64,000 nucleotides of DNA from Lasiosphaeria ovina. Its lineage: Eukaryota; Ascomycota; Sordariomycetes; Sordariales; Lasiosphaeriaceae. This document shows, one piece after another, positions 17,901 through 43,349 of this stretch (within the stretch, counting starts at the first letter, position 1; the number at the start of each line of letters is the position of its first letter). Location of the stretch: assembly GCA_033439765.1 (NCBI GenBank), contig JAULSN010000001.1, positions 8,742,001 through 8,806,000 of the forward strand, written 5' to 3'. The notes under the pieces were generated by a model. The model ran no database searches and was not told the origin of the DNA. It worked only from the letters and a program-made list of their open reading frames with translations. The translations under genes and the position numbers were made by a program.

Positions 17901-19745
17901 GAAGAGCAAGTAGATCAGGCCGCGTAATACCGAAGTTGCGCTATTGATGCGCATGTCCGTGGCCTGGCAGAAGAAGTAAGACAGGAGGTTGCCATTAGCA
18001 GTGGTAGTCTTTTCCAGTTCGTCAATGATACCGCAAAGCAGCATGGTCTTGCCCATGCCGGGATCAGCCTTGATCCAAAGCAGTCGGCTCTGCGGGTCAT
18101 TTTGGAATCGTTGGAATTCCGAGGTGTCGAGGATCCAGCTGTAGGCTTCAGCTAGTAGGCCGCCCTTGGTCAACTCGATGCGCGTCTTGTCGTGTCGCGG
18201 ATCCGTGATTCGTAGGTCGGCAAGACAGCGGTATTTACTCTCATCTCCATCTGAAGGATATGCCAGTTAGCGAACATCTCCTGGAAATAACACCAGCGGT
18301 TTACTTCGCTTGAGGCTGTTTCTCACCAAAATGGATATTGTATTGGCTGCCAATGTTGATGGTGTCGCCAACGGTGACACGGCCGATGTTGGCATGGTAG
18401 TTGCCCGGAGCCATGCCCGTGGGACCTGGGTACCCGCCACAGCTCAGTGACATGCTGACTTGGATATTTCTGATGTCGTTTGGAGATTTCAACACCCATC
18501 TAGCTAAAGCATTGGGGTCGAACGTGTTGGCAGCAAGGTCGGCGGTAAGGATAAGCTGTTTCGTTGGCTGTTTTACTGTGTAATTCTCGGCCGCGCTAGC
18601 AACGCCTTTGGCGGCGATCCCCTGATGTGGCTCTGATTGCCGCACAATCGCCTTGGGTAAAGGAACGAGCGGAATTGGTCTTGGTGCCTTTCCTTTTGAA
18701 AGAAAGATGTAGTGCGGGGTCTTTCGGCGAAACTGCTCAAAAAAGGGCCTCCCGCAATCGTCCACCTGCAGAGATCCATCATGTTTCTTGATCAACGAAG
18801 GGATGCGGATCTTCAGCCGGTTCGTGAGACTTGCATGTAAGATCATATCAGAAAACGGCCACCCGGAGTTTGCAAACAATGCCAACTCGTCAACAAGAGA
18901 CTGGGTAAATGAGTCGGGGCCAACTTCGGCAGCTATTGCTCCAGGTTCGAATCCTGTCGCAGTTATGGCCAAGATAATGCCTTTTCCGCTTGACATAACG
19001 GATGATGGAACCGCTTGGCATGAGTCGAATAGGAGGAGGACATCGGCGTCCAGGCCTCCAAGGATGGGAAAGATGCCAATGGATTCGACTTTTTTCGGAT
19101 TCCATCGTGTTCTGTGCTGCATGTTAGCCAGTACAAACGTTGTTCGATACATAAAACATACGAACACCATATAGGTCCGGGCTGACCATGTTCCTGGTAT
19201 GCATGTCCGCCGTAATACAAGATGAAGAGAGTGTCCTCGTCATTGCTTTGATTGACAAAGTTCCTCACTCGTTCGAGCAAGCTGAAATAGGCGTCCACTG
19301 ACGGAATCTCCCATTCCTCAACTGCATAGTTGTACAGGACTTGAAACACCTGCTTCAGAGCACGAAGCTCTCGGTCAACGCCTAGATCATCATTTTCCCA
19401 GCTGATCAATAGAACGTAAACCTTAAGGTGCGATGTGAATCGTGTGGGCCATCGCGTGGTAATCAACTCGTTGAGCTGAGCGGTCATGGTCGAAAGGCTG
19501 TGGGACTCGGCCTCCCGAGATGCTGAATCGCAAGGCTCATCCTCGAAGTCAAACCTCCGTATCTTGGAGGAGTTTCCTTCCGAAATAATAATAAATGGCG
19601 GATTCTCAGTCATATCTGTTACCCCTTCGTGGCTGAGGTGGGATATGTTCCCTGAAGGTGATTCTCCGCGGGGTCTCTTATTTCGCTCGCATGCGGTGTG
19701 GATTTTAGTGGTCCCAGCTTGCTTTCCGGAACCGTCATTATCCAT
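14940..19745 (-). CDS. NLR-type receptor: caspase-like, NACHT and WD40 repeats
   Basis: Exons 19745-19162, 19111-18327, 18250-16728 and 16655-14940 join in frame to 1,535 residues (donors GTATGT, GTGAGA, GTAAGT). After about 100 disordered residues comes a caspase-like domain (about 105-400) with His181 in FILYYGGHA and Cys226 in LLLFDSCQA, the expected catalytic dyad. Residues about 430-456 (GRVTVGDTINIGSQYNIHF) link to the NACHT, whose P-loop ADPGMGKT is at 518-525 and Walker B YFVIDALDEC at about 621-630. Nine 42-residue WD40 repeats follow (about 1029-1406), then a degenerate blade and a C-terminal extension. By family knowledge the WD40 array senses a ligand, NACHT oligomerises on nucleotide binding, and the caspase-like domain is the cell-death effector. 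The NACHT end has the standard DPRHDKTRIE lead-in, which argues for one gene rather than two. Confidence 0.85.
15320..16470 (-). repeat. Tandem 126-bp WD40-coding repeats
   Basis: Nine 126-bp units encode WD40 blades of the pattern CLQTLEGHS..VNSV.FS.DGQRLASASSDHT.RIWDPATGN. Differences concentrate after GHS, before DGQ and in the SSDHT segment. This is what is known for high-identity WD repeats of fungal NLRs under diversifying selection and repeat shuffling. Confidence 0.85.
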
Positions 19746-24616: not shown

Positions 24617-27600
24617 CTATGTCGCCGGTAGCTGTATGACCATTGTGGAAGCCGAGGCCGCCGTAGATCCTATAGGGATCGTGCTCTCAAACTCTAGAAA
24701 CCAGTCCTTACCTCCCTTTTTGCCACTTCTCTTCTGCTTATCGTTGAAACTTAATCCTCGTAGCATCGAAAAACGGCGAGCAGCTTCACTTGAGTTATTA
24801 CCAGCTTCGTCGGATGTTGGCCCCTCGGGCTGTTGCATTGTTGGCGAGATACAGCTCTCTTGTTGACCGCCTGTCGATGCCCTCTCGTCCTCCACCTCGC
24901 TTGAAGGAATGAAGTCCCCAGCATTTACTGGCGGATCGGGCTCAGTCTGGAGACTCAGCCCTTTGTTCGATTTCCAGAACGTTCTAAAGGCAGCCGAACG
25001 TACTACAATATTTATTATTAGTATCTGTCATATTTTGGCGAGGCCTGTACCGTCTTACCATTATTCCTTTTAGGCAAACCGACGTCTGATGATGAGTTGG
25101 TACCTCGCCTGTGTCTTGATGGGCGTGGATCGGGTGGTGTGTCTAGTGGCGGAATACGACTGCTCACATCCTGTTCCACCTCTTGACTTGGGACTCTATT
25201 TATCCTATCTTTGTTGGTGCCCGAGGCAATGATGGTTGTTTGCCCTGCCGAATGGTTCTTGGCTTTTGTATGTAACTGTGGTCGAGTCTCCACTTTGGAG
25301 TCGTGATTGGTGCTGTCCATCGATAATCCCGGCTGCAAACTCTTCGACCGTGTTACCAACTCCATGAAATCATTCAACCCGGACCATGTCGCCCAGTCAA
25401 GCGCGGTCTGGTTTGACGAGTCCTCGGTCTCAATATCGGAATCGTATCGAAGAACTCGACAGATCAGCTCTGGATCCCCAGTAGCTGCAGCGTACATGAG
25501 CAGTGTCATTCCCGGCACCCAGCGTAAACGTAGCTGCTCAAAGACTTCGTTGTCCATGATGTACCGAATAACTCCGTCATGATCTCGTCGTCTTGCATCG
25601 TCCCATTTCCGTTTTGCCACCGGATCCGGTGTCGCAGGCCAGACTGATTGGACGGATTTCCTGCTTTCCATCTCCGTCACGTCGTTCGAAACAGCGTCGA
25701 GGTTCACTTTGAGCAATTCTGTGCGCTCCCGAAGCCCCAATTGCTCCCTCGTTTGCCCCTCAAGCTTGGACTGGAGGGTTTCTTCTTGGGCCTTCAGCAA
25801 CGCTATTTCTTCACGAATTTGCTGCAGTTCCCTCGTAGTGGTGTCGATTTCCCCGTTCAAACCATCGAAAGCGCGCGCACACTCTTCACTCTCGGACGAT
25901 ATGCTCAGTTGAGCCAAGACAAGTCGTACTAGACTACAGCAGTCTCGGCGGATTTCCATCTGGTCTTTTATATGAGGCCAGCGGGGAGTGAAACTGGGCG
26001 AGCTTGCATCCCGCGACGTGTCGTCACTCGAGAGGCTCACAACCCAGAGCCGATGCTGGTCTGTCGCTTCATTCTTGATAGACGCTCTTAACGTTGAGGG
26101 TGGTAAGAAGGCTTCCATGATTTCGGTGGTTGCCGCGCATGCGAGGCTTGGCCAGAAGCTTTCGACAAGAGGTAAGGGCGTTGGCGGTACGCTGTCACAG
26201 TAGAGGCAAACCCGGGGGTTTTTCCCCCCCACGGCTGACTCCCGGAAAAACTCCAGCGCGAGTATGAACTGGCTGGCGGCCACGGCTACCGAATCTCTTT
26301 CACCTTGGTTAAACGGGGAATAGGAGAACCTGACTAGGAAGAGAACCGAGTTCTGCTCAGTCCCGAAGTCCTGTTCTCGTGGAGTTTTGATCATTGCCTT
26401 ATCCCTTTCGAAACATCCCACCGGGAATATATCGCCGATCTTAACCTTCCCTGGGGACGGTGGTGGTTCTAGGTAGAGCCAATATGATTCGTCATTCGAT
26501 GCGGTAACATCGCTCGCCCGGTTATTGCAAATCCAGATGGTTTCGGGAGTCGGTGTCTCTGAAGGCATCGGCAAATAGATGGTATTCAAGCCCCTAGGAC
26601 GAAGGAAAACAGGGCGGGCGTGAGCGCTGGACCTTCTAGTTTGACATTGGACGAGAGGGATTGCCGCTACGCGTGATGGGTTGTTTTTGGGGCCGCACGA
26701 CAGATAACCGTAAACGACTTGGCTCGAAGAACCTGTCATTGTGGGACTGGGGCAAAGAGACATGCTGATGGGAATTTTCCCGCCAGGTGTGTCAAACGCC
26801 TGGACATGGGTTTCCGTATGACTGGTTGACCGTTGCACAATCCCTCCGCATAGCTTGAAGGCGGCAGGAGAGGTTGCGAGCACGCCCCCTGAAATCGCAG
26901 GGGAGACAGCATATTCTTGTTCGGCCTCCATCTGTTCAAGCGACCAGGCGAGGATTGAGTCGTCGGGTGTTTTCTTCATGATCTCCACTTGAAGGCGATA
27001 GAAGGCACTTTCGAGGCCCTCACCGTAGATTGGAGACAGGATAATGTTGAAAACGCCGAGTAGGCAGTATGCCATATCTTCAAGGACCGTGGTTTCCCGC
27101 CTTGAAGCCCAAGACATCCTCTGCGCAACACTGCAACTCTGCGGGTTTGTAATGCCTGTGAGGATAGCGTGCGGGATTCCGGTCGCGTCCCTGATCGCTT
27201 CCCACAGGGACGATTTTGTACCAAGCTGAGCCCAGGCCGAATCGAAAAAGATCATCTTTTTGGGATCCTGAGGGGCCAGCAGCTCTTGAAGTGTCCACCC
27301 CCGTGTAAACCAGCGGCTTTTGGAGATCTGGTTGGATTGTCCCGGTTCCACGTCGGCCAGGTATGCGTAACAGAGTTCGGATTTCTGGTACCATCGAAAC
27401 ATGGAGTTGATGGCTGAGCTGAGCTCTACCGCGTTGGTCTTATCGATACAACATGTGTCGATCCAGATGTAGTCGATGTTGTGTTTGCGGGCTTGTTCGC
27501 AGCAGCGGTCCAGCTTCTCCCTCTGCGCCGAACCGCACCTGTCAAGCGCCTGCATGTCCTGAAAAGACAGCTCCTCTTCTTCTTCCCCCCATGTGTGCGA

Positions 27601-27672
27601 CAGGATTGCGTACGGCTGTGTTGGGTTTTGGAAAGTTTTGAGGCGCTTGGTGTGGACGTTTATCAGTCGCAT
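24617..27672 (-). CDS. HET-domain protein with coiled coil and ankyrin-like region
   Basis: The start at 27672 (MRLINVHTKRLKTF) is the usual N-terminus of HET proteins. An open frame continues upstream for 75 codons but has no such homology and may be leader. The HET domain covers about residues 18-165: YAILSHTWG, DYIWIDTCCID and RGWTLQELLAP. A central region of about 400 residues follows, then a coiled coil (about 605-672), an ankyrin-like pair (about 695-775, with LLMYAAATGDPELI and ALDWATWSGLNDFMELV) and a Ser/Pro-rich tail. An intron with donor ATG|GTAAGA at 25058, branch TACTAAT and acceptor GTAG extends the protein in frame into exon 25002-24617, for 999 residues. A frame without that splice would stop at 25018. 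HET proteins trigger cell death on recognition of non-self, and this one is likely a recognition-locus member. Confidence 0.82.
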
Positions 27673-28375
27673 TTCGTCGGAGCCGTGAGGGGCCGGGGGA
27701 CGGACTGGCGAGCGCGCTGTGGCGAGACATCTAATTAGCAACAACAACAGGAGAACATAAGAGAGCGCATGTACTTGCCTACCTATACAAATGCCCGAAC
27801 TTGGGCAATGGTCCGGACCTGGGTCTTGCGCTCTGGGCATGGTTCTGGTTCCCGATTGACGCGTGCTGAAACGGAAGAGGGGCACAAGCAACGACAAGGC
27901 ACGTGAATGGCGCTCTTGCGTCGTATTCTATGCAATAATTCGGATACAGCGGTTTATGCCGCAGTTATGCACCTGACTGCAGTGGAAAATGGAAGTCAAG
28001 GAGCCTTGAGCTAAGCTCCTCCTGGCGAGGCATCGTTCAGCGGTGGCTGCTGGGGAGGCGGGCACAGCACTGCGACCTCAAAAACGACATTTTCCCATAT
28101 TGCTAGTGCCGTGGGGTTTTCACGGAAGACTTCTAGAAGACTCGGAGTTGGAGGTGGTGAAAACCGCAAGGGGTTGGTGGAACTGGGCAAAATACAAACG
28201 CCTCCCTGCCGTGGGCCCTTCTCTCTAGTCCTGCAGAAAGCCATCTTGTCAAGAGAGGTATGTAGGATACCGTTCAGGTTTTTCCACTTGGAGTTGGAGT
28301 CAGGGCTGTTTGTATCTCATCTCCATCGTGACAAAATAATTGATACACCAAATACCCTAACCCCACCCAAAATCG
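27673..28375. other. Leader and promoter region of the HET gene
   Basis: A likely 5'-leader intron on the minus strand has donor GTAGGCAAGT near 27781 and acceptor CTAATTAG near 27730. The remainder shows no gene. Confidence 0.4.
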
Positions 28376-28675: not shown

Positions 28676-28683
28676 GTGCCTAC
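28676..28683. other. Left 8-bp target-site duplication (GTGCCTAC)
   Basis: It is identical to 40970-40977 and directly abuts the left terminal inverted repeat. Confidence 0.85.
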
Positions 28684-28704
28684 TTATCTCAGCAGGCTCA
28701 GACC
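28684..28704 (+). repeat. Left terminal inverted repeat
   Basis: A 21-bp sequence matches the reverse complement of 40949-40969 at 20 of 21 positions (G versus A at position 12). Confidence 0.88.
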
Positions 28705-28870
28705 TCTTTTTCAGGCGTAGAAAATAAAGGAAGGTGCCTGCGGCACCCCCCCCCATAAAAGAAGGCACCCTAGACCGCATTCGTATCCTGTGACCCGCAA
28801 ATTTTTGGTGTGGCACAGATAGACCCACTTGGACCCACATTGCACAGAACGCCTGAAAAAGAGGTCTGAG
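28697..28870. repeat. Left subterminal foldback
   Basis: The 21-bp arms 28697-28717 and 28850-28870 are perfect inverted repeats separated by 132 nt. The outer arm overlaps the terminal repeat by eight bases (CTCAGACC). Confidence 0.85.
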
Positions 28871-30701
28871 AGAAAAATGTTGCCGGGGGGGGGGCATAGC
28901 TCTCTGCGCCCTATACAAATAGAAAAAATGTCAAAAAGTTATCCTGCAACTGCACAACAACAACACATCTTCAAAATATGAAAATATATATCTGAGGATG
29001 CTGAGACGCGCGTAAGTCTTTTGGTATAATTTTTATATCGTTGGAGGAAGTAGAAGTGTTATTCGTAATGTCAAACGGAAAAACAACCATAGATCTCTGT
29101 CTTTTTGCCGTAACCTTCATCCCAACTATGCCATCACAACAGGGCCGAAAAATCTGAAAATTTGCATATAGAATGCCCTCGCGCAGGGCATCCTCCGCAT
29201 GTAATCTTTTCCTCCTACAACCTACCTCTTCCATTTGACCTCCCGGAAGACCGCCCGCACCGCCAAAATGGACGAAAATGCGCGTAAAAAGCGCATCAAC
29301 GACGTGATCTGTAAGATCACAGGCGCAAAGGAAGCCCGCCAGGGACAGGTTGAGGCAGTATATCGGCTTGTACACCAGCAAAAGGATACAGTCCTCGTCG
29401 CCGCAACAGGCTACGGCAAAAGCGCCGTGCTCTACGCCTTCTCGGCACTCACGATACTTACTACAGTACAAATCGTCCCTCTCACGAAGCTAGGCGAGAA
29501 CCAACGGGATGACATTGCCCGGGCAGTCCCTTCTTCGAAGCCTATCTGGATTGACAGTAACACCCACCTCAAGGTCAGCCCCTTTTTTACCCCTGACCCC
29601 TGAATAAATTGAGGCTAACTAATTTATCCAGAACCCGAACGTTTGGAATAAAGTCAAAGCTGGCCAATATAGTCATGTGCTTCTAAGCCCTGAACAAGCT
29701 GTCAACCCGAAGTTCAAAGCGGTCCTTCGTGATCCCGACTTTCACAGCAAGCTTGGACTCTTCGCCATAGACGAGCTTCACATGATCAGCGAATGGCGAG
29801 AGTTCCGGGAGGAATTCACCTATTTACACACGTTGAGGGCGTTGATACCGAAGAGGATTCCATTCTTTAGCTATACGGCAACGCTGGACAAGGATAACCA
29901 GGCATATATACTCAAGCATGCCGGCTTTGATCAGAGAAATCTCCGAATAATCCGCACATCGATCGACAGGCCCGAGATCACGGTCATCCTACTACCGTTA
30001 ATGAGGAAGGTCATTACGGATTTTAGGCGCCTATATTTCCTCGTAGAAGGATCCAAGCCTAACGAAGCCCGGCTGATAAAAAAAACGATTATATATATTA
30101 ATAGCAAGCCCAAGCTAATCCTGGCCCGGTATATCCTCCTCAAATACCTTTAAAAGGTCTGTGGCTTCACAAGCCAGTTTATAGCGAAAGTCATACGCCG
30201 GTACGATGCAGATGTGCGCCTAACCGACCAAGAGATCATCTTCAAGGACTTCGCGAATAGAGATACCGACTGCCGTATTATCCTAGCCTCTATATCCCTC
30301 GGTATGGGGATGGATATACCCGATGTATAGCGTATTGTTTAGTTCGGCATACCCCCGGGTCAAAGTCTTTCAGACATTTGGTAGCGTTTTAGAAGAGCAA
30401 TACGAAAGTGTGAAGGTTAGGGGGAGGCTTTTTTATTTACCCCCTACTATCTATTTGATCACCTAGGGAGTTATGATAAACTACTACCGAAGCCGAGAGG
30501 GCCGCCTATAAGAAGAGCCCGCCGCCAGCCTTATATACCAGCCATACCTAGTCGTCTTTAGAACCAACTATAGCTTGTTGAGCAGGATGACGATACCGTT
30601 AGCGAAGCCGGCAGCGATACATCTATTACTTCACAAGCTAGTGATGTCTCTCAAGCTGTTATTCCTGAGCTAGTCGATACGGAATTTAGGGGCTTATTTG
30701 A

Positions 30702-30965
30702 TGTAAGAGAGGGCAGGTACGCCTGATCAAGGTGGTCACAATGTAGGCAAGAAGAAGGGCGAGCAATGAGTGGCATTGGTGTAAGACTTCAACCTGGCCC
30801 TCGCAAAGGAAGGTGGGCGAGGGCCGCTGCTTATATACATGCTCAGGGGCTCCGTTCCTTGTGACGGCAGTAGCTGTGCCAACTGGCAGTGGTCTGGCCA
30901 GTTGGTGACAGGTGGTGGGCGCATACAAAGGTGTGCGCACGTGCTTGGGGTGCTCTTTCCTTACA
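30702..30965 (-). repeat. 3' LTR of the chromovirus
   Basis: 264 bp with TGTAAG...CTTACA ends and a TATA-like segment (TTATATA) inside. It is identical to the other LTR except T versus C in GCATACAAAG/GCACACAAAG. Confidence 0.92.
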
Positions 30966-31045
30966 ACTATCCCCCCCCCCGTAGATCGACGTCCTCGTCG
31001 ATCTTGAACCTTGTCTATTGTCCTTCCTCCAATAGGAGCAAAAGC

Positions 31046-31117
31046 GCCGCGGTAGTATAGTGGTTAACACCCTAGTATCTTTGCTAGAGGTCGGGGGTTC
31101 GAATCCTCCTCGGGGCA
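31046..31117 (+). tRNA. tRNA-like sequence inside the retrotransposon 3' region
   Basis: The A box TAGTATAGTGG (31053-31063) and B box GGTTCGAATCC (31096-31106) match the tRNA internal promoter. Acceptor arms GCCGCGG and TCGGGGC pair with one mismatch, and a T-arm GGGGG...CCTCC is present. The anticodon arm CTAG...CTAG leaves an 8-nt loop with TATCTTTG, which is abnormal, so identity is uncertain (possibly CTT). It lies antisense to the element, between chromodomain and LTR. It is either a captured tRNA gene or a tRNA-derived sequence. Confidence 0.5.
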
Positions 31118-31189
31118 TCTTGGTTCATGGGCACGGCCTGCGGGTCGTGCTCGTGGATCAATGACTTTTTAGTTATTCCACTTCCTGTA

Positions 31190-31385
31190 CCTTTGTTTTG
31201 CTTTTTTCTCGTATCGTTGTAGCACCTTCTGTACGTTAGCCAAGTATTCCCTAGGTTCCCAGGTATTGTATTCTACTGGCCAGCCTGCCCATTTGACTAG
31301 GAACCTTTTTCGTTCTCCTTCATCCTTATATTCCACGATGTCTTCTACTTCCCACTCCTCCTCTCCTTCTACTAGCTCTGGTAGT
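31190..31385 (-). pseudogene. Chromodomain of the retrotransposon
   Basis: The minus-strand frame reads EWEVEDIVEYKDEGERKRFL then VKWAGWPVEYNTWEPREYL, a typical chromodomain at the C-terminus of integrase. It binds methylated histone tails and directs integration to heterochromatin in chromoviruses. It is still open, but lies downstream of many stops. Confidence 0.75.
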
Positions 31386-31399
31386 GGTAGTACCTTCTA

Positions 31400-33900
31400 G
31401 CCTTCGGCTACCGACCACTTTTCTAATAGGGAGACTAGGAAGATATCATGGAGCCGGGCGTACTTGGCTAGTAGTTCGACCCGGTATACCTACGTGCCGA
31501 TCCTTTCCGTAATCTTGACTGGGATGAACCTTGGTGCTAGCTTCCTTCCTACCTTGAATCGGAAGTTCTGTATAGAGAGTCTAACTGTCTCTCCTACTTC
31601 GAATTCGATCTACTAGTATCGTACGTCGTAGTATTTCTTCTGGGAGTCCACTACCTTCTGCCAGTGGTAGTACAACCTCTCCCTCAGGTGTGCTAGCTTG
31701 CTTAGCCGCTCGTGAACCCCTTGTACCTTCAGCTGTGTAGAGGGTACGTAATGCGCCATCCGAGGATTATAGCCGTATAGGGCCTCGAACGGGCTCGCTC
31801 CGATGGTTGCGTATACGCTATTGTTATACGCAAACTCCGCTTCGTGGAGTAGTAGTGCCTACTAGGCCTCTTCGTCGGTAAAGCACCTTAAATAGTGCTA
31901 TAGGCTTTGGTATGTTCGTTCCGACTGGCTATCGGTCTACGGGTGGTAGGCTGTTGAGAGCCTCTGCTTAACTTGGCGAGCTTTGGAGAGCTCCACCTAG
32001 AAATTACTAGTTAATAGGGAATCTCGGTCGGAGACCATACCTATTAGTATACCAAATCGGCATTCCACATACTCGTAGAGTAGCTGGGCTAACTCGGCTG
32101 CCGTAACCGTAGTAGTAGTTGGGATAAAGAGCGCGGTTTTCGTAAACCGGTCCATAACTACTAGGATGGCATCTACGATACGGTCCTTATACTAGTAAGG
32201 GGGTAGCTTCGTAATGAAATCTAGGCTGATCTCTTCGAAAGGTTAGATAGGTAGCGGTAGGGAGCTGAGTTTCCCGTATAGCTTGTGCCTTGGTTGTCGG
32301 TTACCGAGGTATACCTGGTACTATTTTGTGTAAGCTTGTACTTCTACGTCTAGATTTTCCTAGTAGAATCTTCGCTTTAATAGGTCCACTATCTTATAGC
32401 TCCTAAAATACCCGGCTCTGGGGTTATCGTGGTACAAGCGTATTAGCTCTCTTCGTACTACTGGCGCTACTGGGATTACCAGCCTACCTTTATATCGGAG
32501 GGCCCCCTCATCATTAACGCTATCGTTTCCTAGCCTACCCTAGAACCCAGTACCTATACGCCTTATATTGTTATTCCCTGGTTTCCCTATGGGCCTAGTA
32601 CCCGCGTTATCAACGTTATTATTTCCTAGTCTGCCCTGGAATCCAGTACCCATACGCGTATTATTATTCCCTAGTTTCCCTATAGGCCTAGTACCCGCGT
32701 TTCTTTAATCCTCGAGCACCTCCTTAATACGGCTTCTATATTCGAGATCCCCTTTCTATAGGGCGATAATCGACCTATAGAATCTATACCTAGGATCCTG
32801 TTCCTTAGCTGCCTCACCGGCGTAAACCTCTACCGCAACCGCGTAAGGAATTAATAGGTCGGTACCCTAAGCGTTTAGCTTTAGTTACCCCTCGACCCTC
32901 TAATCTAACCGCCCCGGCGAGATCGTCTACTCTGGCGAGTCCGTAGTAGTTCTCCTAGTACGGCGTCCCAGCCCCTCCGTCGGGGTACTTCCGTCCCGCT
33001 AATAGCTCCTTTCCCGGGGCTCCGCTTTATCAAACGCCACGCGTCCGGTGGCCCCGAGGGCAAAGCGCGTTATAGCCGAAACCCTAGCCACACCTTCAAC
33101 TCGAGGATATTGAAGGGTCTATTCAACTTGTCTCACCGCTCTACGGTACTTCCGGGAGCACGACTTCCTCTATACCCCGGCCTTAATCTAGGCCACGATT
33201 GCCCTTACTACTACTAGCAACTCCCTAGCTAATTGTAGCTTCTTCGTTAAGGTGGGTAATATATCGTCGTAGGCAATCTCTCCTACTATATAGTCCGGTC
33301 TTCTTGAAAGGGGGTCGGCGGGGTTGGTAGCCCCAGGTCGATATTCGAGGTCGAAATCGAAAGGAGATAGGCGGTATACCCATCTAGCTAAGCGGCCCTT
33401 GAGGTCTCGGGCTGGGGCTACGATTACCCCTTTTAAGGCCTCGTAATCGGTGAGAACTACGAACCTCTGGTCGGTGCCGCCTAGGTAGTGGCCCCAGTGC
33501 TCGAGGGACTCGATAATAGCGATAAGTTCCTTCTGCCCGGTGGCCCACTGGAGCTCAGTATCGGTGAGCTTCCTTGACTAGTAGGCTATAGGGCGCTATT
33601 AAGAGTCGACTAGCTATGAGAGGATCCCGGAGATCGCCTTATTGCTAGTATCGGTCTCGACTCTAGTCTGGCGGGTTGGATCCCAGTAGGTAAGAAAACC
33701 TACTTGACTAAACGCTACTTTGAGGTGGTTGAAGGCGGTATCGGCCTCTAGTGGCCATCGGAAAGGGTTAGTGGCCTCTCCTTTTAGTAGTACGGTAATG
33801 GGGGCTATGATCCTAGAATACCCCTAGATAAACCGGCGGTAGAAGTTGGCGAATCCGAGGAAGACTTATATCTCTCGTATTGACTAGGGTGCGGGCCATT
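31400..33900 (-). pseudogene. RNase H and integrase region, heavily mutated
   Basis: Fragments on minus include WATGQKELIAIIESLEHWGHYL and LTDYEALKGV (RNase H). Integrase fragments include RELIRLYHDNPRAGYFRSYK, LDFITKLPPY, VSDRDSLL and RLSTAYHP.TDS. Zinc-binding His/Cys of the integrase N-terminus appear replaced by Tyr, as C-to-T would give. Numerous TAG codons stand at Gln positions. A roughly 110-bp tandem repeat (32530-32700) lies in the spacer between the two domains. Confidence 0.75.
32530..32700. repeat. Tandem repeat between RNase H and integrase
   Basis: Units containing TTATTCCCT(G)GTTTCCCTA..GGCCTAGTACCCGCGTT recur with small changes. They encode a Gly/Asn-rich spacer (pattern GTRPIGKxGNNN) on the minus strand. 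Confidence 0.6.
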
Positions 33901-33901
33901 C

Positions 33902-34471
33902 TTAGATTGCCTTAACCCGCTCGAGGTCTATTGAGATACCTTGGTGGTTAATGATAAAGCCTAGGAACTCGACTTGGTCCTGGTAGAAGGAGCATTTTGA
34001 CCGTTTAGCGAAGAGCTGGGCTTGTTCGAGACGGTCGAGCACCTCTAGGATATGGCGGGTATGCTCCTCACGGGTGGTGGAGTAGATGAGGATATTATCG
34101 AGGTAGACGATACAAAACATATCTACTAGGCCGGCTAAGGCCCTATTGATATAGGCTTGGAAGGTGGCCGGCGCGTTAGTCAAGCCGAACGGCATGACTG
34201 TATATTCGAATTGCCCGTACCGGGTCTTGAAGGCCGTTTTCCACTGATCGGCCCGGCGGATTCGGATCCGGTGGTACGTATCCTTGAGGTCAAGCTTAGT
34301 GAAGAACCGGGCGCCGGTAAGACGGTCTATAAGGTCACTAATCAGCGGCAGCGGGTACCGGTTCTTGATAGTGATCTTATTTAGGCCCCGGTAGTCAACG
34401 TACAACCGTAGGGTCCCATCCTTCTTAGGGATAAAGATAACCGGGGCTCCGGCAGGGCTGCTGCTTTCCAC
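33902..34471 (-). pseudogene. Reverse transcriptase core, active site altered
   Basis: The 189 open codons include APVIFIPKKDGTLR, YPLPLISDLIDRLTGARFFTKLDLKDTYH and MPFGLTNAPATFQAYIN, a Ty3/gypsy reverse transcriptase. The catalytic YxDD reads YLDN, with the second Asp changed to Asn, consistent with a G-to-A change. This alone should abolish polymerase activity. Confidence 0.85.
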
Positions 34472-34609
34472 GATACGGCCGTTAGCGAGGTTTTCCCGAA
34501 TATAGGCGGCGAGTTCGTCAAGCTGGGCCTGGCTTAGGGGGTAAATATGGCCCTACGGTGGCGTGGATCCTTCTTCAAGGTCGATATAATGCTCCGCTCC
34601 TTCTAGGGT

Positions 34610-35271
34610 GTTAGGTTCCCGAGCTGCTTATTCCGAGAAGACAGTTGTTCGGTGTGCAAGCTCCGGGGGTAAAGGTTCTGGGTTTGGCTCCTATATCGGG
34701 CCGTCGAGGGTATCGATATGGTCCTCCTCGGGCCCGATAACTACGTTGGAGACTATGGCCGTAAAGGCGGGTGCGCCGTTAAGGACGTCTCGGGCGAATT
34801 CCCCCGGCAGGATCTCCGAGTAACGGCCCCATTCGAAGGCGTTAAGGGCGGTATGAAGAACCACGCCCTCTAATCCTATACCCGGGTTCCCCCATAGTAT
34901 TAGTGGGGCCCCCTTTGGCCGCTTGACCCCGTAGAAGAATTGAGATACGGTACGGGGGTTCCCGTATATGTTAGTAAGTTGGAGAGTAAGGTGGAAAATG
35001 CCGTGGTTCTTGATCCGGCTACCGTTAGGGTTAATAAGCTGCGGTAGGTCGAGGCCTTCGGCCTCCGGGAGTATGGGGATGTAATATACCCGGTAGAACC
35101 GGTGATCTACGTAATTGACTTGGGCCCCCGTATCGGCATTAATGACTACCGTTAGTAGTGCGGCCTTCTGGCCACGGCGCCAGGAGCGAGTACTACCTTG
35201 GATGGTGAAGGTAGGGCCTGGTTTTACCCCGTCGTAGATGGCCTGGGTAGATCGATCGGGGTTATCGTCTA
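34610..35271 (-). pseudogene. Aspartic protease region
   Basis: The minus frame contains VINADTGAQVNYVD (active-site DTGA near 35127-35150), the hallmark of retroviral-type aspartic proteases that process Gag-Pol. It is followed by in-frame TAG stops upstream of the reverse transcriptase. Confidence 0.6.
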
Positions 35272-36468
35272 CTAGCTCCCGTTTCCCGAGTCGTCTTCGG
35301 AGTTAGAGGGTTCCGGGCACGGGTCCTCGAGGTCTCCGTAGTCCCCTACCTCGATTCTCTGGACCTTGGCGTCCGGGCCTGGTGCGGCCGTAGGGCGCCG
35401 AGGCGGGAGGGTGCACTGGCGTTGCATATGCCCTACTTTGCCATAGTTATAGTATGTAGGAGGCTCCCTGGCGCGGAGCGGTGCCTGGGCGTTCGGCCCA
35501 GTGGCGGGTGGGGCGTAGGTAACGGGTTGGTCTGGTGTGGGGGAGCCCCGAAGCTCCCTGCGTTGAATCCGGGCTTTGTCATGGCGGGGTCCGGAGTACG
35601 GTTCCTCCGTCGTACGGTGTAGTTTTCGGGCCTCGCTAAGGCTGGTGGGGGAGCCCAGCCTTTTCCGGTACGTTTCTTTGTCGTTGCCGTTCCTTAGGTA
35701 GGCCCGGGCGAGCCAGATCCGCTCATACCACTTAGCGCACTCCTTTGCCGAGGTGACGTTAGGGACGGCCTCGGTATATCGATTGTGGTAGAAGCGGTCA
35801 AGTTTGATCCAATAGTCCCGGGCCATAAAGGTGGTATTGATGTCCATATCCGGCAGGTGCCTCACTAGCGTAGACCATTCGCGGTAGAATTCCTAAGGGG
35901 ACCGGCCGCGTTGAGTACATACTAGCCATTCTTTGTGTGCTTGTACTTCGCCGGATTTGCTGCCGAGGTAGTCCGCATTAACGTATTCTTTGAACTCCTG
36001 CCAGGTAATCCGCTCGAAGTCCCCTTCGTGGAGCTGCTTCTAGTAGGCCCGCCACTGCTACTGCGCTTCTGGCTCCATCCAAGTGCTGGCCCACTGGACT
36101 TGGAGCCATTGAGGTCGGTCTAGGCGGGTTGCGTTTCCTTGTTCGGTGGCTAGGAGCTAGTCTTCCTTGTCCTGGAGGGAGGCGTCGAGCTTGAGCTTGC
36201 CGACTGCGTAGGAGGGAGGGCGATCATCCTTCAATCTAGGGGGCCCTCCCTGCGGTCCTAGGTTAGCCAGAGTAGTTCCAAGGTTGCCTAGGCCGGTAGA
36301 AAAGTTGGTCATCGCCTGCAATATCAAGGTTTGGAACTGCTGGGGATCCATGCTAGTAGAGGGCGTAGGAGAGTCCTGTACGGGGTCGTTCAAATCCTCG
36401 AGGGTCGCTTGTTGGGTTGAACTGGCCTGAGGAGTGGCTCTCCCCTTTCCACGAGTGTTGCCTGCCAT
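35272..36468 (-). pseudogene. Gag, broken
   Basis: The N-terminal part (36468-36157) begins MAGNTRGKGRATPQ. The C-terminal part (35865-35272) has YYNYGKVGHMQRQC, a CCHC zinc knuckle in which the first two Cys positions read Tyr. Between them stops interrupt the frame, all TAG at expected Gln. Gag forms the particle, so this copy could move only with help. Confidence 0.75.
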
Positions 36469-36512
36469 AGTGACCGGCTCGATCGTTACCGGTGGTAGGG
36501 AGGTTGAAGAAT

Positions 36513-36776
36513 TGTAAGAGAGGGCAGGTACGCCTGATCAAGGTGGTCACAATGTAGGCAAGAAGAAGGGCGAGCAATGAGTGGCATTGGTGTAAGACTT
36601 CAACCTGGCCCTCGCAAAGGAAGGTGGGCGAGGGCCGCTGCTTATATACATGCTCAGGGGCTCCGTTCCTTGTGACGGCAGTAGCTGTGCCAACTGGCAG
36701 TGGTCTGGCCAGTTGGTGACAGGTGGTGGGCGCACACAAAGGTGTGCGCACGTGCTTGGGGTGCTCTTTCCTTACA
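36513..36776 (-). repeat. 5' LTR of the chromovirus
   Basis: 264 bp, one difference from the other LTR. In element orientation the sequence after it runs ATTCTTCAACCTCCC before the gag ATG about 45 nt on, and no standard tRNA primer-binding site is obvious. Confidence 0.92.
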
Positions 36777-37796
36777 TTTGACTACCCTGAGCGGCTTAAA
36801 TGGACCAAACCTAACATTGTTACTCGGGAAAAAATGGATCCAATATTCCTCGGTTTTCTCAACGCTACCTACTTCCGTGAGTATATGCTCAAATACCTTC
36901 AAGAGCCTACGGATGACCCTGGGCTCGAATACAAGCGCCCAGTCGATTAATAACTATATTATAATAGTTATAATCATATACTTGGTCGAATTCCTCCCTT
37001 ACCCCCTCGCCAACAGGGGGAAAACAAACCTCAAGCCGGCTCCTTTTCCGGCATTACGTTAGATTAGTTGTCTACGTAGTGTAAAGAGCAGGTACAGGCT
37101 CTCGTACCGCCTGAAAAAAAGAGATTTGACGTGATCTCCGAGATGTGGATGGACGAGAGGCTCCAGGTTACAATTGCAAGGCTATTTAAGTCCCGGGGTA
37201 AAAAGGAGCTTCCTTTTACTGACTGGGAGGGCCTCGTTATAAAGGTCCCGGCACTCAACGACTGGGAATACCAAGACGAAGAAGGCGAGGATCTGGTGAT
37301 GTTTTTACTCGTATCTATTAACAAGATTCACGAGCTTTAGGGTGCTTAGAAGAAGAAGAAGGCCGACCTTCGTGCCTCAAGGACTTTAGAAGGCGGTATT
37401 TCTCCCGATACATTACGCAAGCGGGTTGGAGAGCTATCTATTGACTCTCCTACCGCCTCACGGTCTCGCACATAGGGCGCGTATATACCGTAGCGAAGCC
37501 GTATATGCAACGTAGAAATGCCGCACCTAAGCGGCTCTCGCCTACCTACCTAGCTTAATTACCTGCCTTGGGCGCATTTCTATAGCTTGTTAGATTACTC
37601 GTCAATTTATATATTATTCCCTACAAATTGAGGCTCTATATGGACCAAAATGAGGCTCTATATGGGGCATATGGTAGCCCCTGAGCGTAAAAAGGGGCTC
37701 CCTGAGGGTAAAGAAAGGGGTCCCCTGCGTATAAATGCTACTAATCGTCTCAAAGTAAGCCGTTGAGCGTTGTTTATTTATACTATAACTGTTTAT

Positions 37797-40633
37797 TTAT
37801 ACTATAACCGCTACTAAGCGCTCTGCTAACTAGTCGCCCGTAAGATTAATAGCCTATACCCAGAAGTCATCTTCGGCATCGAATAAACGCAGGCCCTCTT
37901 CGCCCTAGTTAATTTCTCCATCCTTAGTACTACCTAGTATAGTCCCGGGGACAAGACGCTACTCTGTAAGGTCCTTAGGCTTAATAATAGCCTTATTGAA
38001 GTTATTAAGCTTTTCTAGTAGTATTTGTTGCCCTCTCTTAAAGATATTAGGGGTATTAAATGCTTTAGGGCGGTCCTCCTTATTATTCCGCTTGGTGATG
38101 CTATCGTTATATAGCTTATATGCGTACGAAATGATGTCTGCTATAGGGTCGCCGGCCTTATGTATTCCCTTCTGTTTACTCTCGAAGAGAGTCTCAACCG
38201 ACTTACGAATGGTGGCTAGGAAATTGCCGTTCAGAGCTAGCCGCGAGAAGGTGGTATATATATCGTGAGTGGAGTTCTTATTATACTTGATATCTAGCGT
38301 ATATAAAGCGTTGATGTGTTCAAGTATAAGATTAATGGCCTTATAGCCACTCCCGGCTGTTATGTAACGAATTAGACCGCCCTTTAGAATCGCCCGTATC
38401 GTATGCTCCTCGCTAATACGAGGGTGTAGAAGCCAGGCAAAATATAACATCTCGGGGCCGTAATTCGACGACCTTCCTCCCTAGAACAACAATGGTAGAA
38501 TCGGTATAATATCCCTGAGGGTGCCCCAGTTACTATATCGAATGGCCTTATGAATAATGAAGAGGATCTTAGTATACTGGAGAAGCCGGTACTAGCTTCT
38601 GAACTCCTTATTAATAATATCGCCCTTTATAAGGTCGGAATAACGCCCTGTCTAGGCGTTATAGGTAAATAATTTCTCCCAAATAGTATTGATAGCGTCG
38701 TTAAGAATATCGGGGTCTAAGCCCTTTAGTAAATCGAGGACCGTTTCGACGTTGAGGTTATTATCGGTATTGATCTGGTTTTTCTTCTTCAACTCGTTAA
38801 GAATGAAGGCCAGAATTCGTATACTATAACCGTGTATTAATAGAGGTATGACCTGGTAATATTTTATGTTATTCTTCGTGATATTCTTGCCCTGGTGGAA
38901 AAACTGTATATTAGAAGAAATAATAGCGTTGGTAACGCTATTTTTATCGTTACTAGTATCCTAGAAAACCCTGAATAGTATCTTAATATAGTTGAGCTCG
39001 ATGTGAAAGAAAGCGGGTATAGGAATAAGCCACTTCTTTTGCTCCCACTTTTCGCTAGCCTCTAGTTGAGAGAGCTTGATGCGGCGAATAAAGGAGGTTG
39101 TTTTCATATCGCCGTAAATAAGAGTGAGGCGTTCATCGATGTTAGACTGTTAATTAAGTCCAAGCCTGCGTTTGAAGAGCTCTTCGTGTAATTTGTATAC
39201 GCCGTCGATAGTTCCTTCGTCCTTAAATATAGTACCGAGCTGTAGGTATGGAGAGGTATTGTATTTGACTCTCTTGACGACAGGCATGTCAGGGACGTTC
39301 TTTGTGAAGATCTTCATAAGAGCCTGCTTTACGAGCTACTTTGAGGCATTGTTGACGGTCTCTCGGCGCGGTAGGATGTAATCGATAATCATCCTCTTCG
39401 TGATCTTCGTTCGAGGCCGGAAATTGGCTTTCTGAATAGCTCCCCCGAGCTCTGGGTACGACATAATGCAGGCCGTTGTAAGATTGATCATCTCGTCTTT
39501 CTTCCCGCCAACTAGCTCTCTTGTTCGGCTTATGAAGTTGAAGTTATCGTAGACCACAATGCTGTTCGGATCCCGAGCCACCTTCTTGATGTTTTCTTTG
39601 GCCCTATCTGCCATCTCGTTGAGCATCCTATTCAGGGTCCAATATGAAGGGATGAGGCCGATATGTGCGAGGGTCTCTATTGCGCGCCTTGGTGTGCCGT
39701 TCGCGAGCATATATAGGCCAAGAACATCTCTCAAGAAAGAGCTGTTATTGCGTGCGTAGCCGCCTGTAAATAAGGAGGCGAATAGGAAGATTTGGGGGCT
39801 TTTCTCGTCGTCGAAGTCCATATTTGCCAGCTCTTTCTGGGTCATGCGCTATTACAATATTAGAACTATGATGGGAGAGAGACTCATAGGAATGGGATGA
39901 AGGGCCATGGGAATGGGACAGCGACCCATGGGAATGGGAGACATACCTGATTCTGTAGGACCTGTGATAAAAAGGTCACCAGATTCGGGGCTTCTTTTTT
40001 GAGCGTTGGCCAGGCTTGTTTGAGTGTGTTGTCGAGCCATGTAGTATCATAGACTTGTGCAATAGTAGTAGGCACTGCAGACTGGCCCTTGAAAGGCTCA
40101 AATACACTAAAAGCTGGCTCTTTGATGAGCATCTTCATCTCCTTACGTACAGTACTGCTGAAGGATACCGCCTCCTCGACGTGGTCGTCACTGATAATCG
40201 TAATGCCTTGTGTTTTGAGGGCATCGCGAATGGAAGGATTCATGAGAGCCTGAGCAAGTCGCCGGGTTCTTGCCCCAGCCGTTGGAGTGCCCTCCTCTGT
40301 CCACCTGTATAGAAAGGCATCGATATTGTATCTCTGAGGCTGATCTCCATCCCGTTATGCGCGTTGGTAGTTATTTTTGCGGCGTTGTAACCATATCTTC
40401 ATGGTTTCCTATAAAATATCGTCCGCTAGATGCACAGAATCGTCTAACTGGGCGTCTTCATCGTCATCGCCGTCATCATATTGAGGGGCTTCTACAGGGC
40501 CGGACTTCGTAGGAGAAGAGAGCTCAGGGGTGTTGCTCAGGCCAGTAAGTGAGCTTGTGTCATATAGTCGCAGTGACAACGGCTAACTCCCGCCGGGAAG
40601 GCCTGCATCCTCATCCTCTGGCGCGCCAGACAT
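37797..40633 (-). pseudogene. Large DUF6589-like protein of the DNA element, RIP-damaged
   Basis: Reading from ATG at 40633, the frame runs through an intron (donor GTATGT near 39946, acceptor AATAG near 39851) to a likely natural stop at 37797-37799, about 900 residues. At least ten in-frame stops occur, all but about two TAG, at places where Gln fits. Open pieces include LGLYMLANGTPRRAIETLAH, SIVVYDNFNFISRTRELVGG (the conserved YDN core of DUF6589-type proteins), ELNYIKILFR and HPRISEEHTIRAILKGG. The family name is my recollection of its pattern. No catalytic mechanism is proven, and I infer it to be the transposase because it is the only other large gene in the element. Confidence 0.65.
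39875..39942. repeat. Minisatellite inside the DUF6589-like intron
   Basis: Repeats of a CATRGGAATGGGAYR-type unit (plus strand) fill the intron between CAG|GTATGT and the acceptor. Confidence 0.7.
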
Positions 40634-40796
40634 GTTCTAATGATAAAATTAGTACCGGAATGCTCAGAATTTCTCGCGCTTTCGAATGGTACTAACGGCT
40701 TATTTTTGCGACGACTTTTGGTGTTGTTGTAGACCCGTAATTAGTTGAAGGTTGGTGGTTTGAAGATCTATGCCCGGGTCGATACACATTATGCAC

Positions 40797-40956
40797 TCAG
40801 ACCAGTACAGTGGCTCTTCTTCCCGGGTGTTGTGATTGGTTCAAATGTGTATTTGTGGGTCATATGTGGGTCAATGTCCCCTAAAATCTAAAAAATCGGG
40901 GCCGCAGGCCCCCCACTGGGGCGTAGCCCCTCTTTGAGCCACGGTACTGGTCTGAG
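40797..40956. repeat. Right subterminal foldback
   Basis: Arms 40797-40817 and 40936-40956 are 21-bp inverted repeats with one mismatch, separated by 118 nt. The outer arm overlaps the terminal repeat by CTCAGACC, as at the left end. The remaining arm sequence differs from the left foldback. Confidence 0.82.
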
Positions 40957-40969
40957 CTTGCTGAGATAA
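40949..40969 (-). repeat. Right terminal inverted repeat
   Basis: The reverse complement of this 21-bp block equals the left terminal repeat except for one base. Confidence 0.88.
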
Positions 40970-40977
40970 GTGCCTAC
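40970..40977. other. Right 8-bp target-site duplication (GTGCCTAC)
   Basis: It is identical to 28676-28683 and directly abuts the right terminal repeat. Confidence 0.85.
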
Positions 40978-41377
40978 CCACTACAGTACTTCTGGCTCAA
41001 GAGGGTGGAAGATCAATCGCCGCTTTCACAAGCGACAGCCTTGTCGCTGCATGTTTGGAGCGAAGTCCTGTGGGGCGCCAAGCCAATAACTACCAGAGTT
41101 CGGTCAACACTGCGTGCGTGCCAGCGGGGTCCACAAATCAACCCAATCCGGCGCGCTAGGCAACCAAGGCGCAGCCTAGCTGAGGGAGGGCTATAATGGC
41201 GTCGTCCCTCGTTTCGTTTGGGGTCACCCACGACCCAGCTTCCCAAGGCACCCCAATCCACTTTTCGATGGGCTAGCTCGAAGCTCCACCTACACTGGCT
41301 GTCCTCTGCATCTCTTTTTTGCGTACCAAACTTGAAGCCCATATATGGGGCCGCTTGCGCCTCCCGTTCGACCAACT
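40978..41377. promoter_or_regulatory. Promoter region of the MFS gene
   Basis: This stretch lies between the end of the DNA element and the transporter ATG. CCATATATGGG at 41339-41349 resembles a TATA element but overlaps the upstream in-frame ATG at 41345. No clear GATA cluster was established by eye. Confidence 0.35.
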
Positions 41378-43349
41378 ATGTCTGCTGCCGACATTGACAA
41401 GGGAAATAGCACGTTTGTTGCCGCCCCCGGCAAGGATTCGGATCTATCCCCAGCGGATGAGGCTCAACACCCCGCACCGGCCTTGTCCGACGAAAAGTCC
41501 CCTGGAGTTCGTCGCGTCGAGGCCCTGTACTCAATCCTGACCCTCCAGGATCGTATCTTCATCTTCATCGGCGTTTTTATCATTGCCAGCGCGTATGGGC
41601 TTGACGGTCTCCTCCGCAATGCATACCAAAATTACGCTACCGCCTCTTTCTCCCAGCACTCTCTGATCTCGACCGTTCTCGTCCTTCGCTCCGTTATTGC
41701 CGCCGCGGCTCAGCCCACTTCTGCTAGGCTCGCCGATATCTTCGGTCGTCTCCAGCTCGTCTGTCTTGCTGTCGTCTTCTACGTACTCGGCACCATCGTC
41801 GAGGCAGTATCCAACAATGTCGAGACGTTCGCCGCTGGGGTTCTTATTTACCAGGTCGGTTACACCATGATCATCTTGCTTGTCGAGGTCATTATCGCCG
41901 ATATCACGTCAACCCGCGAACGTTTGCTGTACAGCTTTATCCCCAACGCCCCCTTCCTGGTCTTAGTCTGGGTTAGCGGTAATGTCTCAGAGGGTATGTC
42001 TAATCACCGCCCTTCGATCCCCTTGTTGGTCATTCATGGCCGTTTCGGAGGTCTCAGGCGGGAAAACCCACGACTGAGACATTCCGTTACCGACTCTTTG
42101 CCTTCAGAGGTGAAGAATTAACTGACTTTTCTCACCAGCCGCACTCAACATTACCGATTGGCGCTGGGGTATTGGCATGTGGGGCATTATTTTCCCCGTC
42201 TGCGCCATACCTCTGATCGTCACCTTATTCTATGCTGGCCGCCGTAGAGACACGCACCCTATCAAAAGTTTGACATGGGCTCTCTCCCTTTCCTACCTAT
42301 TTTGGCGCCTCGACGTGATCGGTATCATCCTCATGATTGCTGGGTTTGCGCTTATATTGGTGCCCATGACGATCGCGGGCGGCACCAAGGCCACTTCCGA
42401 GGCTTGGGAAGCTCCTCACGTCATAGCACCCCTGATAATCGGTCTCATCTTCGCTATCCCAGCCTTTATCTGCTGGCAACTTTATACCCCACGGCCGCTC
42501 GTGCCGTTGAAGCTCATCAAAACCCGCGCTGTCTGGGCCGCATTTGGCATCGCGCTGATGCTCACCTGGGCATATAACATGCAAGCCGACTACTTGTATA
42601 CGGTCCTCGTTGTTGCTTTTGACTTTGACATCGTCATGGCAACACGGATAACTGCGCTTTACACCTTTTGCAGCGTCTTCACCGGCGCTATCCTTGGGTA
42701 TGTGGTCTACAGGCACGTTTACCGGCTAAAGATCTTCATCGTCATCGGTACTGTCTTCTACATGGTCGCATTTGGTCTCCTTATTAGGTACCGCGGCGAT
42801 GCCGACCGTGACAGCCGCGCTGGTGTTATTGGCGCTCAGGTTATCCTTGGCGTCGCCGGCGGTATGTTTGCTTATCCGACCATGGCCTCCCTCCAGGCCT
42901 ACTTACCGCATGAACAACTCGCCGTTATAACGGGCCTCTTCCTCGCGACCTACAACATTGGAGCCGCGTTTGGTGGCGCCGTGTCGGGCGCCATCTGGAC
43001 TCATGTCATGCCTAACGAGCTTCAGTCACGACTGGCTAAGTTTGGGGATAATGCCACCTTGGCAGCTTCGGCATACAATGATCCTTTGAGCTTCGCGAAG
43101 CTGTATCCCGTCAGCACACCCGAGCGCCAAGCCCTAATCGACTCGATCAAGCAGACCCAGTGGCTACTCACCATCGCTGGTATTTGCCTATGCTTGCCGC
43201 TGATCGCCTTCTCATTCGCTTTGCCCGATCCGAAACTGAACAACGACCAGACGCTAGCTGGCGATGGCGCGCAGCCTAGCCCCCCTGCTCGGATAGAAGG
43301 AGAAGTTTCACCTGCGCCTAGTGGACCAGCCGAGCTGCGTACCTTATGA
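41378..43349 (+). CDS. Major facilitator transporter, siderophore-iron type
   Basis: Exons 41378-41993 and 42139-43349 (145-nt intron, donor GTATGT, acceptor ACCAG) give 608 residues. An in-frame ATG at 41345 would add 11 residues. The cytosolic N-terminus is followed by about 12-14 hydrophobic segments starting at IFIFIGVFIIASAYGLDGLL. Features of fungal siderophore transporters are seen: SARLADIFGRLQLV, ITDWRWGIGMW, RLDVIGIILMIAGFALILVP followed by the W..P..IAP..IG segment, and YNIGAAFGGAVSGAIW late in the protein. The family imports ferric siderophores by proton symport at the plasma membrane or vesicles. The substrate cannot be told. It directly follows the DNA element and appears intact. 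Confidence 0.85.

Follow-up and report, generated by a model that had tools for sequence, protein, structure and literature searches.

A Lasiosphaeria ovina transposon that pairs a RecQ-like helicase gene with a predicted transposase gene of the DUF6589 family

What kind of mobile element carries a RecQ-type helicase gene together with a gene of DUF6589 (PF20231), a family to which Pfam gives no function? The question is raised by a locus of the ascomycete Lasiosphaeria ovina, located within a stretch of 64,000 nucleotides (here, the window; assembly GCA_033439765.1, contig JAULSN010000001.1, positions 8,742,001 to 8,806,000), where an initial annotation made from the letters alone had described a large terminal inverted repeat (TIR) transposon between positions 28684 and 40969. 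The best explanation, which we consider highly probable, is a two-gene cut-and-paste DNA transposon of ∼6.2 kb, represented in the window by a dead copy that was split by a younger long terminal repeat (LTR) retrotransposon.

Termini, target site duplications, and genomic copies

In the window, the element is bounded by two 21-bp TIRs, TTATCTCAGCAGGCTCAGACC at 28684 to 28704 (plus strand) and its counterpart at 40949 to 40969 (minus strand), with 1 mismatch in 21 bases. Comparison of the flanks revealed an 8-bp target site duplication (TSD), GTGCCTAC, at 28676 to 28683, repeated exactly at 40970 to 40977. Both features had been annotated initially and were borne out; furthermore, the ends recur across a family. 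When up to 2 mismatches were allowed, the TIR 21-mer matched the genome 46 times (22 + 24), compared to 0 matches for a backward-read control pattern, so that its recurrence exceeds chance. The left and right 601-bp end regions, used as queries against the whole genome, matched at least 26 and at least 31 stretches, respectively.

For 12 copies, the fetched DNA covers both ends, and their flanks were tabulated for TSDs. An exact 8-bp TSD was found in 7 of the 12, and none of these seven matched at any other length from 2 to 14. Two further TSDs are near exact (C29, 7/8; C7, 6/8), with differences that are transitions only, and the mismatch at C27 (5/8) is accounted for by a one-base shift. The remaining two copies, C12c (4/8) and C6a (2/8), have no recognizable TSD; recombination may account for the loss, and C6a adjoins another partial copy. 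Read on the fetched strand, 8 of the 10 recognizable TSDs have G as their first base, a possible target preference for which the cases are too few to judge. At the right end of the C29 copy (L010 7713-7735), the TSD continues into further TTATCTTA-like sequence, and no second element was recognized in the next 280 bases.

The joined flanks of the seven exact-TSD sites were also searched against the whole genome. For three of them, a diverged paralogous locus (69 to 75% identity) spans the junction with the 8-mer unfilled, that is, the kind of empty site that the initial annotation had proposed to look for. The paralogues of the C32b site (C23:3017298, 75%) and the C28 site (C29:3602403, 72%) are gap-free across the single 8-mer, with 62/72 and 55/81 bases in the gap-free block, respectively; at the paralogue of the C12s site (C1:7039260, 69%), the 8-mer is single and one base short.

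Alignment of six near-full-length copies (C6a, C29, C28, C32a, C7, and C32b) to the window puts the transposon proper at ∼6.2 kb, with five copies of 6,191 to 6,218 bp and one, C32b, of 6,662 bp. The 12.3-kb span of the window copy is inflated because a 6.1-kb LTR retrotransposon interrupts the helicase gene and makes up half of the span; the element is therefore a TIR transposon, as annotated, but not a large one. The nested retrotransposon (30702 to 36776, minus strand) encodes RVT_1 and reverse transcriptase RNase H domains, has TG...CA termini, lies between the target duplications TTTGA at 30697 to 30701 and 36777 to 36781, and is absent from all six of the aligned copies. Its 264-nt LTRs (30702 to 30965 and 36513 to 36776) are nearly identical (263/264, 1 mismatch), which implies that the helicase gene was split recently.

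Both genes of the window copy are broken, with 12 internal stops in the DUF6589 frame and 13 in the RecQ frame; the corresponding numbers for the C6a copy are 9 and 15. Between the C29 and C6a copies, all 587 mismatches are transitions, 568 of them C/G to T/A and 503 of those in CpA. The same bias, although weaker, is seen in C28 (692 mismatches, 502 transitions) and C32a (747 and 560). Transition bias of this type is the signature of repeat-induced point mutation (RIP), and the internal stops are attributed to RIP-type mutation.

The family also includes forms of other sizes. Two 1,985-bp copies (C30 and C12) have the same internal deletion and differ by 1 base, yet each has its own exact TSD; the simplest reading is a deletion derivative mobilized in trans. 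The C3 copy measures 23.9 kb from TIR to TIR, with an exact TSD common to both sides. The copy at C5:203000-212400 retains both genes as long open frames; because a TIR search with up to 6 mismatches found no match there, no TSD was read for it. L028, at C5:470562, reads as a lone right-end fragment. Two contigs, C6 (0.55 Mb) and C32 (2.5 Mb), account for many of the TIR matches and gene fragments and may be accessory or rich in repeats; at C6:298427-309053, two copies are adjacent. The copy at C12:1275682 contains a piece of ∼245 bp related to the nested retrotransposon (89%), in reverse orientation.

The predicted transposase and the RecQ-like helicase

Inside the TIRs are two convergent genes, as annotated from the outset, with frames of 901 codons (DUF6589) and 689 codons (RecQ-like). 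The DUF6589 gene (minus strand) consists of exon 1 at 39947 to 40633, a 98-bp GTATGT...AG intron at 39849 to 39946, and exon 2 at 37830 to 39848, which, although a pseudogene here, corresponds to a predicted RNase H-fold catalytic domain with a helical insertion and a D-D-E triad. The PF20231 model is matched by the window copy and all 12 homologues, and other Pfam families are hit weakly, each in 1 of the 12. The predicted structures of the homologues resemble the Hermes, P-element, IS256, Transib, and RAG1 recombinases, with an RNase H fold and a conserved D-D-E/D; the absence of a family, such as Academ or KDZ, from the lists of fold matches proves nothing. The catalytic site that the initial annotation had suggested seeking in a structure prediction was accordingly located in the models, which lends support to its proposal of DUF6589 as the transposase. 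Taken alone, the Foldseek matches fall below significance, and this weighs against that proposal; a DUF6589 profile compared with Protein Data Bank (PDB) sequences gave nothing meaningful (best E value, 0.23).

The RecQ-like gene (plus strand) comprises exon 1 at 29268 to 29573, which encodes a Walker A-type GYGKS motif and whose start was set by analogy with the C6 copy, a 58-bp intron, and exon 2, of which the first part (29632 to 30701) encodes the IDELH box and contains stops before the nested retrotransposon intervenes; the 3′ part resumes at 36782 and ends at 37475. A fragment from the window matches TIGR00614 at 5.1e−17, below the whole-protein cutoff of the model, and a profile of its relatives matches WRN (7.4e−27), RecQ, RECQ1, BLM, and RECQ5 in the PDB; together, these matches identify a superfamily 2 helicase core of the RecQ type. 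Among 12 relatives, the Pfam families DEAD and Helicase_C were found in 11 and 12, respectively, and neither RQC nor HRDC was among the matches. The alignment consensus of the relatives has CFRxxALxYLQEP...CCNxC near the C terminus, which we take to resemble the RecQ zinc module; the Pfam model of that module is weak here (2/12, best 0.0043). In a protein database search, in which scoring was limited to the candidates with the most words in common, at least 16 relatives were found at ≤2.5e−100 among the best 120 of 549, and all those with a named organism are fungal. After these 16, E values fall to 7e−17, to bacterial-type RecQ proteins. Given this sharp fall, the helicase of the element stands apart among the sequences searched.

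Could the helicase gene be a telomere-linked RecQ repeat that lies beside a DUF6589 gene by chance? Such genes are common fungal repeats (PMC4522978, PMC4994206), but copies of the element are internal to large contigs (such as the one on C12, at 3.19 of 7.34 Mb), and they are bounded by TIRs and TSDs, with the RecQ gene inside the TIRs in all six near-full-length copies compared. We therefore reject this reading as scarcely credible. The pairing also recurs beyond these six copies. Matches of at least 100 bits, which we clustered, gave 22 DUF6589 loci and 19 RecQ loci in this genome. RecQ lies within 1.5 kb of DUF6589 at 12 of the 22 DUF6589 loci, always in convergent orientation, and 7 of the 19 RecQ loci have no nearby DUF6589; the C3 copy was counted as unpaired, although the two genes sit near its two ends. 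RecQ apparently stands beside DUF6589 in other fungi, too: matches to both fall on contigs of one and the same length, 406,399 for Diatrype stigma, 14,770 for Achaetomium macrosporum, and 6,123 bp for a JGI contig, so that, with L. ovina, same-contig pairing is presumed for 4 of the 16 close RecQ matches. In Chaetomium globosum and Xylaria intraflava, the matches to the two genes are not on equal-sized contigs. DUF6589 itself was seen in ascomycetes and one basidiomycete, and no relatives were found among 48 pattern matches in viral contigs, among 78 in prokaryote genome contigs, or in 14 control genomes.

Given the fixed TIRs, the 8-bp TSDs, the multicopy spread, the predicted RNase H fold with D-D-E/D, and the recurrent association of RecQ with DUF6589, the notion that the element works like a DDE cut-and-paste transposon is well supported, the catalytic part of it by structural models. 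The DUF6589 protein is very probably the transposase of the element, and we strongly infer that, as such, it would move the element and give rise to the 8-bp TSD at the target.

Hairpin-forming ends and relationship to known transposons

At each terminus, the inner TIR motif is present again in inverted orientation. In the window copy, the left hairpin (28697 to 28870) has fully complementary arms (28697 to 28718 and 28849 to 28870; 22/22), and the right one (40796 to 40956) has arms at 40796 to 40816 and 40936 to 40956 that pair at 20 of 21 bases; the possible stems of 22 and 21 bases would enclose loops of ∼130 and ∼119 bases, respectively. In all 14 left ends examined, 19 to 22 bases are matched and the stem scores are 13 to 22; scores are 12 to 21 in 12 of 14 right ends and lower in the other two (7 and 11). 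For comparison, 200 random pieces of the window had a median score of 6, a 95th percentile of 9, and a maximum of 21. In C32b and C3, both arms have changed and pairing is kept, and the right end of the divergent C5 copy has a pair of arms, complementary at 18/18, whose sequence is different. The RecQ helicase may unwind such ends, a single strand of which could form a stem of ∼21 to 22 bp; alternatively, it might aid gap repair at the donor site.

The view that no described lineage is defined by such a pairing was too strong: helicase-bearing DDE transposons have already been described, among them KolobokH and AcademH, so that taking the lack of a named counterpart for this pair as a sign of novelty is not supported. 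KolobokH couples a fungal Kolobok transposase to a RecQ helicase, and in a Kolobok from a rhodophyte, RecQ lies on the opposite strand (PMC9587614); a telomeric KolobokH of ∼10.5 kb is known from Cladobotryum (PMC10989895). In these respects, the element resembles KolobokH, a RecQ helicase being housed within a fungal DDE transposon in both. However, Kolobok hallmarks are a TTAA TSD, 5′-RR/YY-3′ ends, and a C/DxxH signature (PMC9587614). Here, the TSDs are of 8 bp, the ends read 5′-TT..AA-3′, and C/DxxH is not conserved between the second D and the E in 10 DUF6589 proteins, with no alignment column showing it in more than one of them. Because TSD and signature differ, Kolobok is excluded, and a KolobokH identity is very improbable.

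P elements generate 8-bp TSDs, and we know of no helicase in either hAT or P elements. The element is like both in TSD length, that of hAT being 8 bp as well (PMC12730594), and in a predicted RNase H fold into which, as in Hermes, a long helical insertion is set ahead of the catalytic E. The differences are that none of their Pfam families was matched and that DUF6589 does not have a conserved C/DxxH, the mark shared by hAT, P, MuDR, Kolobok, and Dada (PMC9587614); hAT was rejected on the latter ground despite the TSD. The CMCT group (EnSpm, Mirage, Chapaev, and Transib) was rejected, too, since none of 10 DUF6589 proteins has CxxC between the second D and the E, and no single position there shows H(3-4)H in more than 3 of the 10. 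Pfam includes a KDZ model, and PF20231 is the sole family common to the 12 DUF6589 homologues. KDZ/Zisupton elements are similarly fungal, with 8-bp TSDs and accessory enzyme genes, but the accessory gene described for them encodes a TET/JBP dioxygenase (PMC12730594).

The YDNFN region of DUF6589 may resemble animal Academ-like proteins, a likeness that we treat as a lead only. AcademH, probably the nearest known kind, is a helicase-encoding Academ lineage of DDD/E transposons in animals and fungi (PMC10045372), with low copy numbers in Basidiomycota, Ascomycota, and Mucoromycota (PMC10799480), and is also cited in PMC12210899 and PMC8290104. Under this reading, the element would join a lineage already described, its DUF6589 protein being the Academ transposase and its RecQ-like protein the AcademH helicase. 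The helicase gene beside a DDD/E transposase speaks for it, as do the element's DEAD and Helicase_C domains, which are listed jointly for AcademH, KolobokH, or Helitron (PMC10799480), and the lack of a conserved C/DxxH. Conversely, the TSDs reported for AcademH are of 9 or 10 bp (PMC10045372), 1 to 2 bases longer than the 8 bp in 7/7 exact cases here, and the likeness is one of description. Academ is named without sequence in the relevant passages of PMC10294476 and PMC11075540. On balance, we regard membership in AcademH as likely.

It is possible, although we would put it forward only tentatively, that a DUF6589 DDE transposase, a RecQ helicase, and 8-bp TSDs define a superfamily of their own. 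The TSD length, PF20231 as the one Pfam family common to all 12 homologues, and the conservation of neither C/DxxH nor CxxC with H(3-4)H favor this reading; furthermore, a literature search by DUF6589, PF20231, and IPR046496 found no relevant paper, as judged by title, although such elements may be described under other names. Against it stand the candidacy of AcademH and the helicase-bearing DDE transposons already known in fungi. A more specific form, in which the superfamily would have a RAG1/Hermes-like transposase making 8-bp TSDs and an obligatory RecQ acting on hairpin-forming ends, appears more doubtful still. The AcademH and separate-superfamily readings subdivide the cut-and-paste explanation without contradicting it.

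Surroundings of the element and implications

Elsewhere in the window, adjacent NACHT and WD40 frames and a HET-domain gene (14943 to 18263 and 25018 to 27924, minus strand), together with ankyrin-like frames recognized by eye (12322 to 13770), look like a cluster of fungal NLR/heterokaryon incompatibility genes beside the element. Frames resembling an MFS transporter (41336 to 43349; 29 to 30 bits, below the Pfam cutoff of 33.4) start less than 400 bp from its right end.

These results give DUF6589, a family without an assigned function, a testable one, that of a DDE transposase, and suggest that genes annotated as DUF6589 in fungi belong to transposons rather than to the host. Few DNA transposons with a helicase of their own have been described, and the present element adds one with 8-bp TSDs. 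Why a cut-and-paste transposon needs a helicase becomes testable, with the conserved hairpin-forming ends as a candidate substrate; if the pairing with RecQ proved obligatory, it would point to a transposition route that depends on active strand unwinding.
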